DNA of 64,000 nt, taken from contig NZ_FZNO01000005.1 in the NCBI RefSeq assembly GCF_900188025.1, positions 124,001 through 188,000 of the forward strand, written 5' to 3'. This DNA comes from Blastococcus mobilis (GTDB lineage Bacteria > Actinomycetota > Actinomycetes > Mycobacteriales > Geodermatophilaceae). Under the pieces are notes generated by a model. It did not search any database, was not told where the DNA came from, and was given only the letters and a program-made list of their open reading frames with translations. The position numbers and the translations under genes are program-made. Every line of letters begins with the position of its first letter. Position 1 is the stretch's first letter. Below are positions 28,100-36,843 of this stretch, piece after piece.

Positions 28100-30081
<1,982 letters not shown>

Positions 30082-30085
<4 letters not shown>

Positions 30086-30699
30086 GTGAGATCCCGGCCG
30101 AGCCGGAGGACCAGCTTCTGGCGCCGCTTGGCGGAGTCGACGAGGCGCGGGCGGCCGCTGCGGTGCGCGAGCTGCTCCTGGCGGTCGGGGAGGACCCCGA
30201 CCGGCCGGGGCTGCAGGGCACTCCCGAACGGGTCGCGCGGGCCTACGCGGAGACCTTCGCCGGGCTCTGGCAGGACCCCTACGAGATCCTCGCGACGACC
30301 TTCGACGAGGACCACGACGAGCTCGTCCTGGTCAAGGACATCCCGATGTACTCCACCTGCGAGCACCACCTGGTGCCCTTCCACGGCCAGGCGCACATCG
30401 GGTACATCCCGGGCGCCGACGGGCGGGTGACCGGGCTGTCCAAGCTCGCCCGACTGGTCGAGGTCTACGCCCGTCGCCCTCAGGTGCAGGAGCGGATGAC
30501 CCGTCAGATCGCCGAGTCGCTCTACGAGGTGCTCAAGCCGCAGGGCGTCATCGTCGTCATCGAGGCCGAGCACCTCTGCATGGCCATGCGGGGCATCCGC
30601 AAGCCCGGCTCCACGACCGTGACGTCGGCCGTGCGCGGGATCTTCCGCGACAACCCGGCGACCCGGAGCGAGGCGATGAGCCTCGTGCTGGGCAGGTGA
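30082..30699 (+). CDS. folE: GTP cyclohydrolase I
   Basis: 205 residues. [21 protein letters not shown] carries the zinc ligands Cys and His, followed by [23 protein letters not shown] and the third ligand in CMAMRGI. It makes 7,8-dihydroneopterin triphosphate from GTP, first step of folate synthesis. ATG overlaps the ftsH stop (ATGA) and its own stop overlaps folP by 4 nt. Confidence 0.97.
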
Positions 30700-31544
30700 C
30701 CCCGCTCCCGCGCCCGGGCCGCTGCGTGGTCATGGGCGTCCTGAACGTCACCCCGGACTCCTTCTCCGACGGCGGCTGCTTCGCCGACACCGCCTCGGCC
30801 GTCGCGCACGGCCTGGCGATGCACGCCGCGGGCGCGGACTACGTCGACGTCGGGGGCGAGTCCACGCGTCCCGGCGCCGACCGGGTCGACGCCGAGGAGG
30901 AATGCCGTCGGGTCCTCCCGGTCATCCGCGAGCTGACCGCCGCAGGCGTGCGCACCAGCGTGGACACGACCCGGGCCGAGGTGGCCGAGGCGTCCATCGC
31001 CGCCGGCGCGACGCTGATCAACGACGTCAGCGGAGGGCTCGCCGATGACGGCATGGCCAAGCTGGTCGCCACGACCGGCATCCCGTGGGTGCTCATGCAC
31101 TGGCGCGGCCACAGCCGGGAGATGTACGCGGCCGCGCGGTACGGCGACGTGGTCACCGAGGTCTGTGCCGAGCTCATGGCCCGCGTGGAGGACGTCGTCG
31201 CCGCCGGCGTCGCCCCGGAGCAGCTCGTGCTCGACCCGGGTCTCGGGTTCGCGAAGAACGCCGACCACAACTGGGCCCTCCTGGCGGGGCTCGACCGGCT
31301 GGTCGGCCTCGGTCTGCCGGTGCTGGTCGGCGCCTCGCGCAAGTCGTTCCTGGGCCGCCTGCTGTCGGGCACCGACGGGGCACCGCGCCCGGCGGAGGGC
31401 CGCGACGCCGCGACGCTGGCCACCACCGTGCTCGCCGCGGAGGCCGGGGCGTGGGGCGTGCGCGTGCACGACGCGGCCGCCTCGGTCGACGCCGTCCGCA
31501 CCGTCGAGGCCGTCCGTAGTGCACGGGGAGCCGGCCGTGGCTGA
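30696..31544 (+). CDS. folP: dihydropteroate synthase
   Basis: 282 residues from GTG 30696. Motifs [53 protein letters not shown] and [12 protein letters not shown] define the family and its pterin and p-aminobenzoate sites. Joins hydroxymethyl-dihydropterin pyrophosphate with p-aminobenzoate. Target of sulfonamides. Overlaps both neighbours in the fol chain. Confidence 0.97.
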
Positions 31545-31926
31545 CCGATCGCCCACCCGCCCGACCCCGGACCGCATCGTGCTCAGGGGACTCCGGGCGC
31601 AGGGACACCACGGCGTCTATGCCTTCGAGCGCGAGCGGGGGCAGGTGTTCGGCTGCGACGCCGTCCTGGAGCTCGACACCTCGGCGGCGGCCGCCGGCGA
31701 CGACCTCCGCAAGACGGTGAACTACGCCGACCTGGCCCGCGAGCTCTACGCCGTCCTGGCCGGTGAGCCGGTGAACCTGCTCGAGGCCCTGGCCCAGCGC
31801 CTCGCCGACGTCTGCCTGGCCCACGCGATGGTCGACGCCGTCGAGATCACCGTGCACAAGCCCCAGGCCGAACTCGGGGTCCCTTTCGACGACGTCACCG
31901 TCAGCATCCGTCGGGAGCGCGCATGA
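31537..31926 (+). CDS. folB: dihydroneopterin aldolase
   Basis: 129 residues from GTG 31537, preceded by GGGGAG at a good distance and overlapping folP by 8 nt (GTG 31519 is the alternative). LRGLRAQGHHGVYAFERERGQ, TVNYADLA, and VNLLEALAQRLAD with the closing VEITVHKPQAEL are typical. Cleaves dihydroneopterin to hydroxymethyl-dihydropterin and glycolaldehyde. Stop overlaps folK. Confidence 0.95.
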   Translation: MADRSPTRPTPDRIVLRGLRAQGHHGVYAFERERGQVFGCDAVLELDTSAAAAGDDLRKTVNYADLARELYAVLAGEPVNLLEALAQRLADVCLAHAMVDAVEITVHKPQAELGVPFDDVTVSIRRERA

Positions 31927-32426
31927 CGCGCGCGGTCCTCTCGCTCGGCGCCAACGTCGGGGACCGGGCCGGCGCGCTGCGCGCCGCGATCACCGCGCTC
32001 AAGGACGACGGCCTGGTCGCCCGCTCCACCCTGTACGAGACGCCGCCCTGGGGGCCGGTCGAGCAGCCGCCCTACCTCAACGCCGTCGTCGTGGTCCGGG
32101 GGCCGCGGGACGCGCGGGGCTGGCTGGCACGGGCCGCGGAGCTGGAGCAGGCCGCCGGCCGTACCCGCGAGGTCCGGTTCGGGCCGCGCACCCTCGACGT
32201 GGACGTCATCGTCGTCACCGGGGACGACGGCGCGCCGGTGATCTCCCACGATCCGCAGCTCACGCTGCCCCACCCGCGAGCGCACGAGCGGGCCTTCGTG
32301 CTGGTGCCGTGGCTGACCCTGGATCCCGGCGCGGTCCTTCCCGGGCACGGACGGGTGGCCGATCTCGTCGCCGCACTCCCGCCCGAGGACGTCGCCGCGG
32401 TCGTCCGCTGGGACCACCTGCATTGA
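31923..32426 (+). CDS. folK: 2-amino-4-hydroxy-6-hydroxymethyldihydropteridine pyrophosphokinase
   Basis: 167 residues. Opens AVLSLGANVGDRAGALRAAI, then YETPPWGPVEQPPYLNAVV and the signature RFGPRTLDVDVIVV. Phosphorylates hydroxymethyl-dihydropterin with ATP for FolP. It overlaps folB by 4 nt and its stop overlaps a TTG start of the DUF3180 gene. Confidence 0.96.
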   Translation: MTRAVLSLGANVGDRAGALRAAITALKDDGLVARSTLYETPPWGPVEQPPYLNAVVVVRGPRDARGWLARAAELEQAAGRTREVRFGPRTLDVDVIVVTGDDGAPVISHDPQLTLPHPRAHERAFVLVPWLTLDPGAVLPGHGRVADLVAALPPEDVAAVVRWDHLH

Positions 32427-33043: not shown

Positions 33044-34237
33044 TCACACGGCGCCGGCGGTCTCCGGCACCCTGCCCTCCACCGAGCGGCGCAGGGCGGA
33101 GTGCAACGACTCCGGGGTGAGGACGCCGAGGAAGCGGTCGTCGTCGAGGACGGCGACCCAGCCGGCCTCCAGCTGCAGCATCGTGGCGAAGGCGGTCTTG
33201 AGCGAGGCGTTCTTCGGGACCCAGGCCTCCATGCGCCGGGCCGCAGTGCCGACGGCGCCCGGCCCGGTGGCGCGGTCGGCCGACAGCCACCCGTGCAGAC
33301 GGCCGGCGTCGTCCAGGACGACCGCCCAGCGGGCACCGGTCCGCTCCAACGCGGCCCGGGCGTCGGCCAGGCGGTCGGCCACCTGCACCACCGGGGGCTG
33401 CTCGAGGTCGGCCGCGTCGATGCCGGTGACGGCCAGCCGCTTGAGCCCGCGGTCGGCACCCACGAAGTCGGCCACGAAGTCGTTCGCCGGACGGCCGAGC
33501 AGCTCCGCCGGGGTGGCGTACTGCTCCACGTGGCCGCCCTGGCTCATCACGGCGATCCGGTCGCCGATGCGCACGGCCTCCTCGATGTCGTGGGTGACGA
33601 ACACGATGGTCTTGCGAACGGTCTCCTGCAGCCGCAGGAACTCCGTCTGCAGGCGCTCGCGCACGACCGGGTCGACGGCGGAGAACGGCTCGTCGACCAG
33701 GAGCACGGCGGGGTCGGCCGCCAGTGCCCTGGCGACGCCGGCCCGCTGGCGTTGCCCGCCGGAGAGCTGGGCGGGGTAGCGGTCGCCGTGCGCCGCCGGG
33801 TCGAGCCCCACGGTGACCAGGAGCTCGTCCACCCGGTCCCGGATCCGCTGCCGGTCCCAGCCGAGCAGGCGGGGGACGGTGCCGACGTTCGCGCGCACCG
33901 TCTGGTGCGGGAAGAGCCCGATGCTCTGGATCACGTATCCGATCCGCCGGCGCAGCTGCTCGGGCTCGACCCGTGTCACGTCCTCTCCGTCGATGAGGAC
34001 GCGGCCGGTGGTCGGCTCGATGAGCCGATTTATCATCTTCATCGTCGTCGTCTTGCCGCACCCGGAGGGCCCGACCAGCACCGTGAGCTCGCCGGCGGCG
34101 AACGTGAGGTCCAGCTCGGCGACGCCCACCGTGCCGTCGGCGAAGACCTTGCTGACCCCCTCCAGCCGGATCTCGGCGGCGCGGGAGGCCCCGGCGGGCG
34201 AGCTCGCCCGCCGGGGAGCCTGAGCAGTAGCGTCCAC
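33044..34237 (-). CDS. osmolyte (glycine betaine/choline-type) ABC transporter ATP-binding protein with CBS domains
   Basis: 397 residues from GTG 34237 (AGGAAGG upstream). ATPase motifs: VGPSGCGKTTTMKMIN (Walker A), Q-loop YVIQSIGLFPHQ, signature LSGGQRQRAGVARALA, Walker B VLLVDEPF, switch THD. The C-terminal ~130 residues are two CBS domains, the OpuCA/ProV arrangement, which sense ionic strength or nucleotides. Energises the permeases encoded divergently 26 bp away and the binding protein beyond them. Confidence 0.92.
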   Translation of the reverse strand: MDATAQAPRRASSPAGASRAAEIRLEGVSKVFADGTVGVAELDLTFAAGELTVLVGPSGCGKTTTMKMINRLIEPTTGRVLIDGEDVTRVEPEQLRRRIGYVIQSIGLFPHQTVRANVGTVPRLLGWDRQRIRDRVDELLVTVGLDPAAHGDRYPAQLSGGQRQRAGVARALAADPAVLLVDEPFSAVDPVVRERLQTEFLRLQETVRKTIVFVTHDIEEAVRIGDRIAVMSQGGHVEQYATPAELLGRPANDFVADFVGADRGLKRLAVTGIDAADLEQPPVVQVADRLADARAALERTGARWAVVLDDAGRLHGWLSADRATGPGAVGTAARRMEAWVPKNASLKTAFATMLQLEAGWVAVLDDDRFLGVLTPESLHSALRRSVEGRVPETAGAV

Positions 34238-34263: not shown

Positions 34264-34959
34264 GTGAGCGCGGGACCGGGCCGGGCGCTCGCGCTGGACG
34301 AGGCGCCGAACCCCTGGTTCGACGGTTCCTACGTGGCCGACAACTGGGACACCATTGTGGGCTACCTCGGTGAGCACGTCCGGCTCACGGTCGGTGCCGT
34401 CGCGATCGGCGCGGCGATCGCGCTGCCGCTGGCGCTCCTCGGCCGCCGCAGCCGGTTGCTCAGCGGGGCGCTGCTGGGCCTGTCGACGATGGTCTACACC
34501 ATCCCGTCGCTGGCGATGTTCGCCTTCGTCTTCCCGTTCACCGGGCTCTCGGCGACCACGGTGCTGATCGGCCTGACCGCGTACTCGCTGGTCATCCTCG
34601 TCCGCAACTTCCTCGTCGGGCTGCAGAGCGTGCCCGACGACGTCCGGGAGGCGGCCCGCGGCATGGGGTACGGCGCGGCTCGGCAGTTCTGCCAGATCGA
34701 CCTGCCGCTCGCGCTACCCACGTTCATGGCCGGTCTCCGGATCGCCACCGTCTCCACCGTCGCGCTCACCACGGTGGGTGTGCTGGTGGGCCACGGCGGG
34801 CTCGGGCAGCTGATCTACGGGGGCTTCAACGCCAACTTCTACCGGGCCGAGATCGTCACGGGCTCGGTCGCGTGCGTGCTGCTCGCCCTCGTGGCCGACG
34901 TGCTGCTCGCCGGCGTCCAGCGGCTGCTCACCCCCTGGGCTCGGGCGGTGCGGTCGTGA
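34264..34959 (+). CDS. osmolyte ABC transporter permease (OpuCB/OpuCD type)
   Basis: 231 residues from GTG 34264, five to six membrane helices. The EAA-type cytoplasmic loop VPDDVREAARGMGYGAARQ, ahead of LPLALPTFMAGLRIATVS, contacts the ATPase. First of two non-identical permeases; overlaps the second by 4 nt. Forms the membrane channel for quaternary-amine uptake. Confidence 0.92.
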   Translation: MSAGPGRALALDEAPNPWFDGSYVADNWDTIVGYLGEHVRLTVGAVAIGAAIALPLALLGRRSRLLSGALLGLSTMVYTIPSLAMFAFVFPFTGLSATTVLIGLTAYSLVILVRNFLVGLQSVPDDVREAARGMGYGAARQFCQIDLPLALPTFMAGLRIATVSTVALTTVGVLVGHGGLGQLIYGGFNANFYRAEIVTGSVACVLLALVADVLLAGVQRLLTPWARAVRS

Positions 34960-35690
34960 CCGGGTTCGCCGACGCGCTGGTCTACCTCAACGACCCGCTG
35001 AACTGGACGCGGCGGGACGGCATCCTCGACCTGCTCGGTGAGCACCTGGCCATCTCCGCCGTCGCCGTGCTCGCGGCCCTCGTCCTCGCCGTCCCGCTCG
35101 GCGTCGCCCTGGCGAGCTCGGGGCGGGGGAGCGGCGCGGTCGTGGTCCTGTCCAACGTGAGCCGCGCCGTCCCGACCCTGGCACTGCTCACCCTGTTCGC
35201 GGTCACCCCGATCGGGTTCGGCAACCGGGCCACGACGATCGCGCTCGCGGTCTTCGCCTTCCCGCCGATCCTGACCAACACCTACGTCGGGTTCCGCGGC
35301 GTCGACCCCGACGTCCGGGAGGCGGCCGTCGGCATGGGGATGAGCCGGTGGCAGGTGGTGCGGCGGGTGGAGTTCCCGCTGGCGCTGCCGCTGGTGATGA
35401 CCGGGCTCCGGACGGCGGCCGTGCAGGTGGTGGCGACGACGGGGCTGGCGGCGCTGGTGGGCGGTGGCGGTCTCGGCCGGATCGTGAACCTCGGCTTCGG
35501 CCAGCAGGACTACGGCCAGATCATCGCCGGGGCGATCCTCATCGCGGCGCTCGCGCTGCTCAGCGAGCTGGCCCTGGTCATCCTGTCCTCGGCGGCCTCT
35601 CCCGGCCCGGGACGGTCACCCCTGGCGCGGTTCCGGCAGCGCACCGCGGTGGGCCGTCCCGAGCCGACGGCGGCCGGCGTGCCCCTCTGA
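34956..35690 (+). CDS. osmolyte ABC transporter permease, second subunit
   Basis: 244 residues from GTG 34956. Six membrane helices, EAA loop VDPDVREAAVGMGMSRWQ, then FPLALPLVMTGLRTAAVQ. Homologous to the first permease; the two likely form a heterodimer. The C-terminal ~30 residues are Pro/Arg-rich and polar. The substrate-binding protein gene follows after 142 bp. Confidence 0.92.
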   Translation: MTGFADALVYLNDPLNWTRRDGILDLLGEHLAISAVAVLAALVLAVPLGVALASSGRGSGAVVVLSNVSRAVPTLALLTLFAVTPIGFGNRATTIALAVFAFPPILTNTYVGFRGVDPDVREAAVGMGMSRWQVVRRVEFPLALPLVMTGLRTAAVQVVATTGLAALVGGGGLGRIVNLGFGQQDYGQIIAGAILIAALALLSELALVILSSAASPGPGRSPLARFRQRTAVGRPEPTAAGVPL

Positions 35691-35832: not shown

Positions 35833-36843
35833 ATGCGCACGCGTATCCGGGTCGTTGCTCCTCTCGCGCTGGCGGTGGCCCTCACCGCCGGCTGCGGGGA
35901 GTCCGGGTCCTCCGGCAGCGGGAGCGGCAGCGGCGGGGGAGGGAACGCCTCCGGCGAGGCCTGCGCCCCGGTCGAGGGCGACCAGCTCGTCGTCCTCGAG
36001 GACGACCAGAACCTGCAGAACGCCGACAACGTCATCCCGGCCGTCACCACGGCCACGGCGCAGGCCAACCCCGCCCTGCTCCCGGCGCTCGACGCGGTCT
36101 CCGAGGCGATGACCACCGAGGAACTGATCGAGCTCAACGCCGCGGTGGACCTCCAGCGCGAGAGCGTCGAGGACGTCGCCGCCGCCTGGGTGGAGGAGAG
36201 TGGCGTGACGGAGGGCCTCGAGGAGGGAAGCGGCACCATCGCCGTGGGTGGGGCCAACTTCACCGAGTCCACGATCCTCGCCAACATCTACGCCGAAGTG
36301 CTGCGCGCCGCCGGCTTCGACGCCTCCGCCCGCGAGGTGGGCAACCGCGACCTCTACCTCTCGGCGCTCGTCGAGGGCACCGAGATCCAGGTCGTGCCCG
36401 AGTACCTGGCCACCGTCACCGAGGCGCTCAACACCCGCGTCAACGGGGCCAACCCCGAGCCGGTCGCCAGTGGCGACGTGCAGGAGACCCTCGCCGCGCT
36501 GGAACCGCTGGCCGCGGAGGTCGGCCTGACCTTCGGGGAGCCGTCCGAGGCGGCCGACCAGAACGCGTTCGCGGTGACCCAGGCGTTCGCCGACGAGCTC
36601 GGCGTCCGCACGCTCTCCGAGCTCGCCGAGGCGTGCGGCGACGGCTCACTCGTCCTCGGTGGACCGACCGAGTGCCCGACCCGGCCCTTCTGCCAGCCCG
36701 GTCTCGAGGAGACCTACGGGCTGCAGTTCGACAGCTTCCGCGAGCTCGACGCCGGCGGGCCGCTGACCAAGGCCGCACTCCAGCAGGGCGAGATCTCCCT
36801 CGGGCTGGTCTTCAGCTCCGACGCGGCCCTCGCCGAGCAGTAG
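35833..36843 (+). CDS. osmolyte-binding lipoprotein (ProX/OpuAC family), circularly permuted order
   Basis: 336 residues. Lipobox VALTAGCGES with lipidated Cys21, then a Gly/Ser linker. Residues ~50-120 (GDQLVVLEDDQNLQNADNV to VDLQRESVEDVAAAW) match what is normally the C-terminal part of OpuAC/OsmF proteins. After a short linker, residues ~134 onward (TIAVGGANFTESTILANIY, VPEYLATVTEALN) match the normal N-terminal part, and the protein ends at LVFSSDAALAEQ, where canonical proteins continue into the VLEDD segment. The fold closes up as a two-lobe binding protein delivering substrate to the permeases. Operon with them. Confidence 0.88.
   Translation: MRTRIRVVAPLALAVALTAGCGESGSSGSGSGSGGGGNASGEACAPVEGDQLVVLEDDQNLQNADNVIPAVTTATAQANPALLPALDAVSEAMTTEELIELNAAVDLQRESVEDVAAAWVEESGVTEGLEEGSGTIAVGGANFTESTILANIYAEVLRAAGFDASAREVGNRDLYLSALVEGTEIQVVPEYLATVTEALNTRVNGANPEPVASGDVQETLAALEPLAAEVGLTFGEPSEAADQNAFAVTQAFADELGVRTLSELAEACGDGSLVLGGPTECPTRPFCQPGLEETYGLQFDSFRELDAGGPLTKAALQQGEISLGLVFSSDAALAEQ

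Follow-up and report, generated by a model that had tools for sequence, protein, structure and literature searches.

Does a gene of Blastococcus mobilis encode a substrate-binding lipoprotein whose two parts stand in swapped order, and, if so, how did this order arise? The gene (35833..36843, + strand) lies in a 64,000-nucleotide stretch of contig NZ_FZNO01000005.1, hereafter the window; it starts with ATG and encodes 336 amino acids plus a stop codon. An earlier note, made from the sequence alone, had described the product as a circularly permuted osmolyte-binding lipoprotein in which the segment that closes canonical ProX/OsmF proteins (B) comes before their N-terminal part (A), so that the lipid anchor sits on another lobe. 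Based on the analyses presented here, we consider it very probable that the protein arose in nature by circular permutation of a binding lipoprotein of the ProX/OsmF type (PF04069) and belongs to a four-gene ATP-binding cassette (ABC) importer, with an arm fixed by a putative disulfide bond.

Segment order and its conservation

The native window protein matches the PF04069 (OpuAC) profile with 131.3 bits (curated cut-off 21.2 bits) in two stretches that are out of order, and a single collinear match over the native protein was absent. In the genome profile search, the first match in the gene corresponds to profile positions 187-257 (C42:159983-160198, E 6.1e-12) and the second to positions 2-185 (160235-160837, E 2.8e-23). 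Because the first stretch is significant alone, the N-terminal part is a PF04069 family piece in its own right, and an unrelated N-terminal part was ruled out. When the sequence was rotated to the A-B order, a single stretch spanning profile positions 2-257 was obtained with 145.2 bits. Alignment of a doubled sequence, which the earlier note had proposed as a check, likewise gave one collinear match (89-366) over positions 2-257. The NCBIfam OsmF model went from 70.1 bits in two stretches (native) to 79.2 bits in one stretch (rotated), both below the 400-bit threshold of the OsmF equivalog NF049931. The motifs named in the earlier note were found where it had placed them, and the B-A order that it had deduced was borne out by the native, rotated and doubled profile matches, with which the sequential structure alignments are consistent. 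Judged from the swapped pieces and the collinear match of the doubled copy, the protein is a circular permutant. The same genome has two canonical A-B members of the family at other sites, as found by profile search.

To follow this order among relatives, segment profiles were built for B (residues 50-126), A12 (134-267) and A3 (271-333), and the order was read in the open reading frames (ORFs) of fetched loci. The survey was confined to Actinomycetota, and its 111 distinct permutants were collected for their resemblance to the window protein. Of these ORFs, 150 (111 of them distinct) had the order B-A12-A3, 21 had A12-A3-B and seven had A3-B-A12, while four contained only two segments; the survey of actinobacteria that the earlier note had recommended thus extended the B-A order to 111 distinct proteins. 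In a scan of the genome collection, limited to the best 80 of 556 relatives, the window's order was present in 80/80 loci, whose titles include Geodermatophilus, Blastococcus, Modestobacter, Klenkia, Sporichthyaceae, Promicromonospora, Isoptericola, Myceligenerans, Cellulomonas, Oerskovia, Actinotalea, Demequina, Micromonospora, Allorhizocola and others; one locus is titled Bacillus and marked unverified. Full-length collinear matches occur in 33 of 61 genomes of relatives, in at least 17 of 394 genomes of the class and, at E up to 1e-20, in at least two of 296 genomes of the phylum, the window's own included. No stops were present within the full-length matches listed among the relatives' genomes, and the permutant clade reaches down to 44% identity. 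The only match in a viral collection was an IMG/VR contig (L181:1-420) that starts inside segment A12-A3 of the window type, with 60% identity, and is probably host DNA.

The architecture of the chain can be followed along the + strand. A signal peptide (residues 1-20) and the lipid-anchor cysteine C21, read from the sequence together with the lipobox LTAGC (17-21), occupy 35833..35895. C21 is invariant in the 19/19 aligned permutants, and with this lipobox the protein is predicted to be lipidated as a bacterial lipoprotein. A Ser/Gly-rich tether (residues 22-43, 35896..35961) follows, which is mostly disordered in the structural model (predicted local distance difference test, pLDDT, below 50 for residues 21-40), and leads to the codon of C44 (35962..35964). 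Segment B (residues 50-126, 35980..36210), the canonical C-terminal part, is placed first, and a new linker (residues 127-133, 36211..36231) connects the former termini; this linker has seven residues in 96 of the 111 permutants (range 6-9). Segment A12 (residues 134-267, 36232..36633), the canonical N-terminal part, is placed second and is followed by the codon of C268 (36634..36636) and by segment A3 (residues 271-333, 36643..36831), which includes the C281/C287 pair; the chain ends three residues further. The C terminus of permutants is fixed, lying 1-5 residues past position 333 in 110/111.

Lobes, cysteines and ligand

The AlphaFold model of the window protein, computed from a 50-row alignment, has a pLDDT of 91.6 and a predicted template modelling score of 0.86. 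When structures were aligned with the chain order kept, the match to canonical ProX/OsmF chains was limited to segment A and that to OpuAC to B and A12, as expected from two different cuts. The confident model, together with the matches of single segments to 2b4l and to canonical structures, indicates a predicted fold shared with the unpermuted family. In EgtU, residue Y443 sits in an interdomain linker, according to the available part of PMC9732360, and it aligns with D65 of the window protein. This mapping places the first strand, LVVLE (52-56), on the lobe II side, so that the lipid anchor would leave from lobe II, while in canonical proteins the N terminus opens lobe I with its first strand. 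Read in this way, proteins of the OpuAC order likewise begin in lobe II. The swapped order of the earlier note is confirmed, and its shifted anchor is supported by way of the Y443-D65 mapping. The note had proposed to check that the termini meet near the hinge; the cut is placed here within lobe II, where it separates the last strands, and not at the hinge itself.

Two cysteines distinguish the permutants. C44 and C268 are present in 111/111 distinct permutants, in none of the 22 canonical relatives and in none of the 12 relatives with the OpuAC order. C281 and C287 occur together in 19/22 canonical and 5/12 OpuAC-order relatives and are both absent from the rest, as expected of a disulfide pair. 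With the lipid cysteine excluded, the stretch that begins shortly ahead of segment B and runs to the C terminus contains exactly four cysteines in all 111 permutants; with C281/C287 accounted for, C44 would pair with C268 by elimination. The new N-terminal arm carries C44, whose spacing to segment B is fixed at six in all 111 permutants, and the model becomes ordered from about residue 41 (block mean pLDDT 85, then 95). C268 lies shortly before the lobe II strand LVLGG. From these positions, we infer that a C44-C268 disulfide staples the new arm to lobe II.

In the mechanism we propose, the former N and C termini in lobe I would be joined by the linker of about seven residues, and the new termini would arise within lobe II, where the chain is cut between the strand that ends in FSSD and LVVLE, the strand after it in canonical order. 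The protein would adopt the two-lobed clamp fold typical of the family, enclose a small solute and bind to both permeases of an importer composed of an ATPase, two permeases and the binding protein. Its lipid tether would exit lobe II in place of lobe I, and the putative C44-C268 disulfide would fix the arm to lobe II, making good the break in the chain.

The gene is linked to ATPase and permease genes, and operon and fold together suggest that the window protein serves an ABC importer as its binding protein. In the alignment, the EgtUC cage residues F293 and Y419 correspond to Y191 and F327, both aromatic, while Y341, Y443 and K242 are replaced by N244, D65 and A141; N244 is invariant in the 19/19 aligned permutants and D65 nearly so. 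The aromatic cage of quaternary-ammonium binders of the AfProX/OpuBC/EgtU type was not found, as two of its four aromatics are kept and the lysine is lost. The acidic residues D65 and D242 hint at a cationic ligand that would be bound with an incomplete aromatic cage. The description as osmolyte-binding was consequently not established and should be read here as a family label.

Origins of the permuted orders

The ATPase gene, with CBS domains, is divergent (33044..34237, - strand) from two PF00528 permease genes, at 34264..34959 (+) and 34872..35690 (+; ORF as listed, the true start may be further in), which precede the gene of the binding protein. This layout was found in 94/95 permutant loci with all genes found and in 11/13 canonical loci, while the ATPase is on the same strand in 12/12 loci with the OpuAC order. 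Since permutant and canonical loci share the divergent layout, the swap took place within an orthologous operon. Most likely, a canonical gene of the same operon was duplicated in tandem and then lost its outer parts, in place and a single time. In one relative, a locus (L038) holds two tandem copies of the permuted gene (L038:2857-3846 and L038:4041-5030), and duplications of this type can give rise to permutations.

The order A3-B-A12, that of OpuAC, was found in 12 actinobacterial proteins, seven in the class and five in another class (family code f61), at loci L035, L036, L037, L095-L098 and L197-L201. The Bacillus subtilis OpuAC sequence matched 2b4l_A over its whole length in phmmer. Its first PF04069 stretch begins at profile position 114 (cut 113/114), as do those of L037 and L035, while the window protein is cut at 185/187; by sequence, the two permutations open one and the same circle at different points. 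Trees were built from rotated sequences and evaluated by approximately unbiased (AU) tests. The window's order was monophyletic in the second tree (support 92/63), and a single clade was not rejected in the first (p 0.52). A single origin of both permuted orders was rejected (AU p 0.0012 in the first tree and 2.6e-39 in the second), so the actinobacterial OpuAC-order proteins are apparently of separate origin. A single clade of these 12 proteins was also rejected (AU p 1.8e-8), with the canonical L046 and L202 falling between them, which possibly reflects two origins, or one with a reversion.

These results bear on several other explanations. An assembly error, a frameshift or a gene-call artefact reshuffling one canonical gene would account for an odd order in a single genome, and no support for it was found; given that 111 distinct proteins of many genera share the order, that their cysteine spacing and C-terminal end are fixed and that the listed matches contain no stops, an artefact is hardly conceivable. 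It is very improbable that the window protein is merely the known OpuAC permutation (2B4L) in another organism. Both are Gram-positive lipoproteins of the same Pfam family, and circular permutation among glycine-betaine-binding proteins, OpuAC included, was reported in 2008, as seen in the available part of PMC2395249; however, their cut points are about 70 residues apart (profile start 114 vs 187), and the actinobacterial OpuAC-order proteins lie elsewhere in the tree, where the tests reject a common origin. Slightly less improbable, yet still unlikely, is that operons of this type had the B-A order from the start and that the canonical order was derived by reversion in family f52. The transporter-gene tree nests two canonical f52 operons (L203 and L204) among the permutant operons, with a Shimodaira-Hasegawa-like approximate likelihood ratio test support of 97, but the binding-protein tree places f52 outside the permutants and rejects this grouping (AU p 7.4e-5), and permutant operons as one clade were not rejected in the transporter-gene tree (AU p 0.159).

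A reading with a substantial chance, somewhat short of even, is that the permutation is real and functionally neutral, with C44 and C268 forming an unrelated stabilising disulfide or pairing otherwise. Permutants usually keep fold and function (CPSARST, in the available part of PMC2395249), the transport function here is a predicted one, and the cysteine pair arose once, so its association with the cut may be coincidence. On the other hand, both cysteines are invariant across the clade, C44 sits in the new arm at its fixed spacing, and at least three separate permutations in the family would place the anchor on the same lobe. We tentatively entertain the rather unlikely extension that actinobacterial PF04069 lipoproteins were permuted repeatedly, the window order once and the OpuAC order apparently twice, with the anchor moved each time from lobe I to lobe II and the cut secured by a new disulfide in the window lineage; it builds on the lobe II start of the OpuAC order. 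If so, anchor placement on a given lobe would be under selection, probably to present a fixed clamp face to two different permeases. Several points weigh against the permutation in place with a disulfide-fixed arm that we prefer. The L203/L204 nesting is read as noise or operon mixing, and reversion is possible; L094, the most divergent permutant, is loosely placed in the trees; a fused A-B-A-B duplicate was not seen among the fetched ORFs; the individual frame-error check left out four of 95 loci or ORFs at contig ends; the C44-C268 pairing was deduced from conservation and not from a sulfur distance; and the gain of this pair in one clade makes its link to the permutation a single event rather than a repeated coupling.

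Under the preferred reading, permutants and close unpermuted relatives in one orthologous operon offer a clean setting in which to ask why chains permute and what compensates the cut. Domain tools give two partial hits on such proteins, which are easily mistaken for fragments in annotation, and builders of sensors from permuted binding proteins gain a cut point kept by evolution.

Neighbouring genes and known systems

Downstream of the permutant gene lies a convergent DUF1684 gene (PF07920; 36859..37599, - strand), which has been retained next to many permutant loci and also next to the OpuAC-order loci of f61; L081, L102 and L198-L201 are among the loci that have it. On the other side, the transporter adjoins 28100-32426 (+), whose ORFs we take from their translations to be FtsH-like and folate-pathway genes.

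The canonical actinobacterial orthologues L069 and L073 (f52) share about 59% identity with the window protein over segment A; together with L039, L040, L099, L100 and L205-L209, they have the same divergent operon and differ in their A-B order and in having neither C44 nor C268. Both segments are also homologous to AfProX (1SW1), EgtUC (7TXK/9EGH), YehZ/OsmF (4WEP) and Agrobacterium ProX (4ND9), the last of which superposes with segment A at ~2.2 Å; these canonical proteins have the A-B order, and their listed hits consist of two out-of-order stretches or one segment only. A profile search of PDB sequences (E up to 1) brought up no solved structure in the B-A order, and at E up to 10 no collinear full-length match was obtained for the OpuAC-order actinobacterial proteins; both searches compare sequence only. 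In the open-access PMC literature, with subscription papers such as the OpuAC structure paper lying outside, we found no report of this cut, of repeated actinobacterial permutations or of the cysteine pair. Permutation within this protein class was thus already known, while the second cut point and the C44/C268 pair are new.

OpuAC (2B4L) is the best structural match to the window protein by Z score (16.1), with 17% identity in the structural alignment. It is likewise a permuted PF04069 lipoprotein whose N-terminal anchor, if read in the same way, precedes a strand of lobe II, but it differs in its A3-B-A12 order and gave no profile match at E up to 1. A parallel outside the family is the Treponema protein TpMglB-2 (Tp0684), a circularly permuted glucose-binding lipoprotein for which the authors, in the available part of PMC4990184, suggest anchoring as a possible reason. 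As described there, it resembles the window protein in that a tethered binding protein of an ABC system has been permuted in nature, and it differs in belonging to another binding-protein class (Type I / cluster B) with another permutation.
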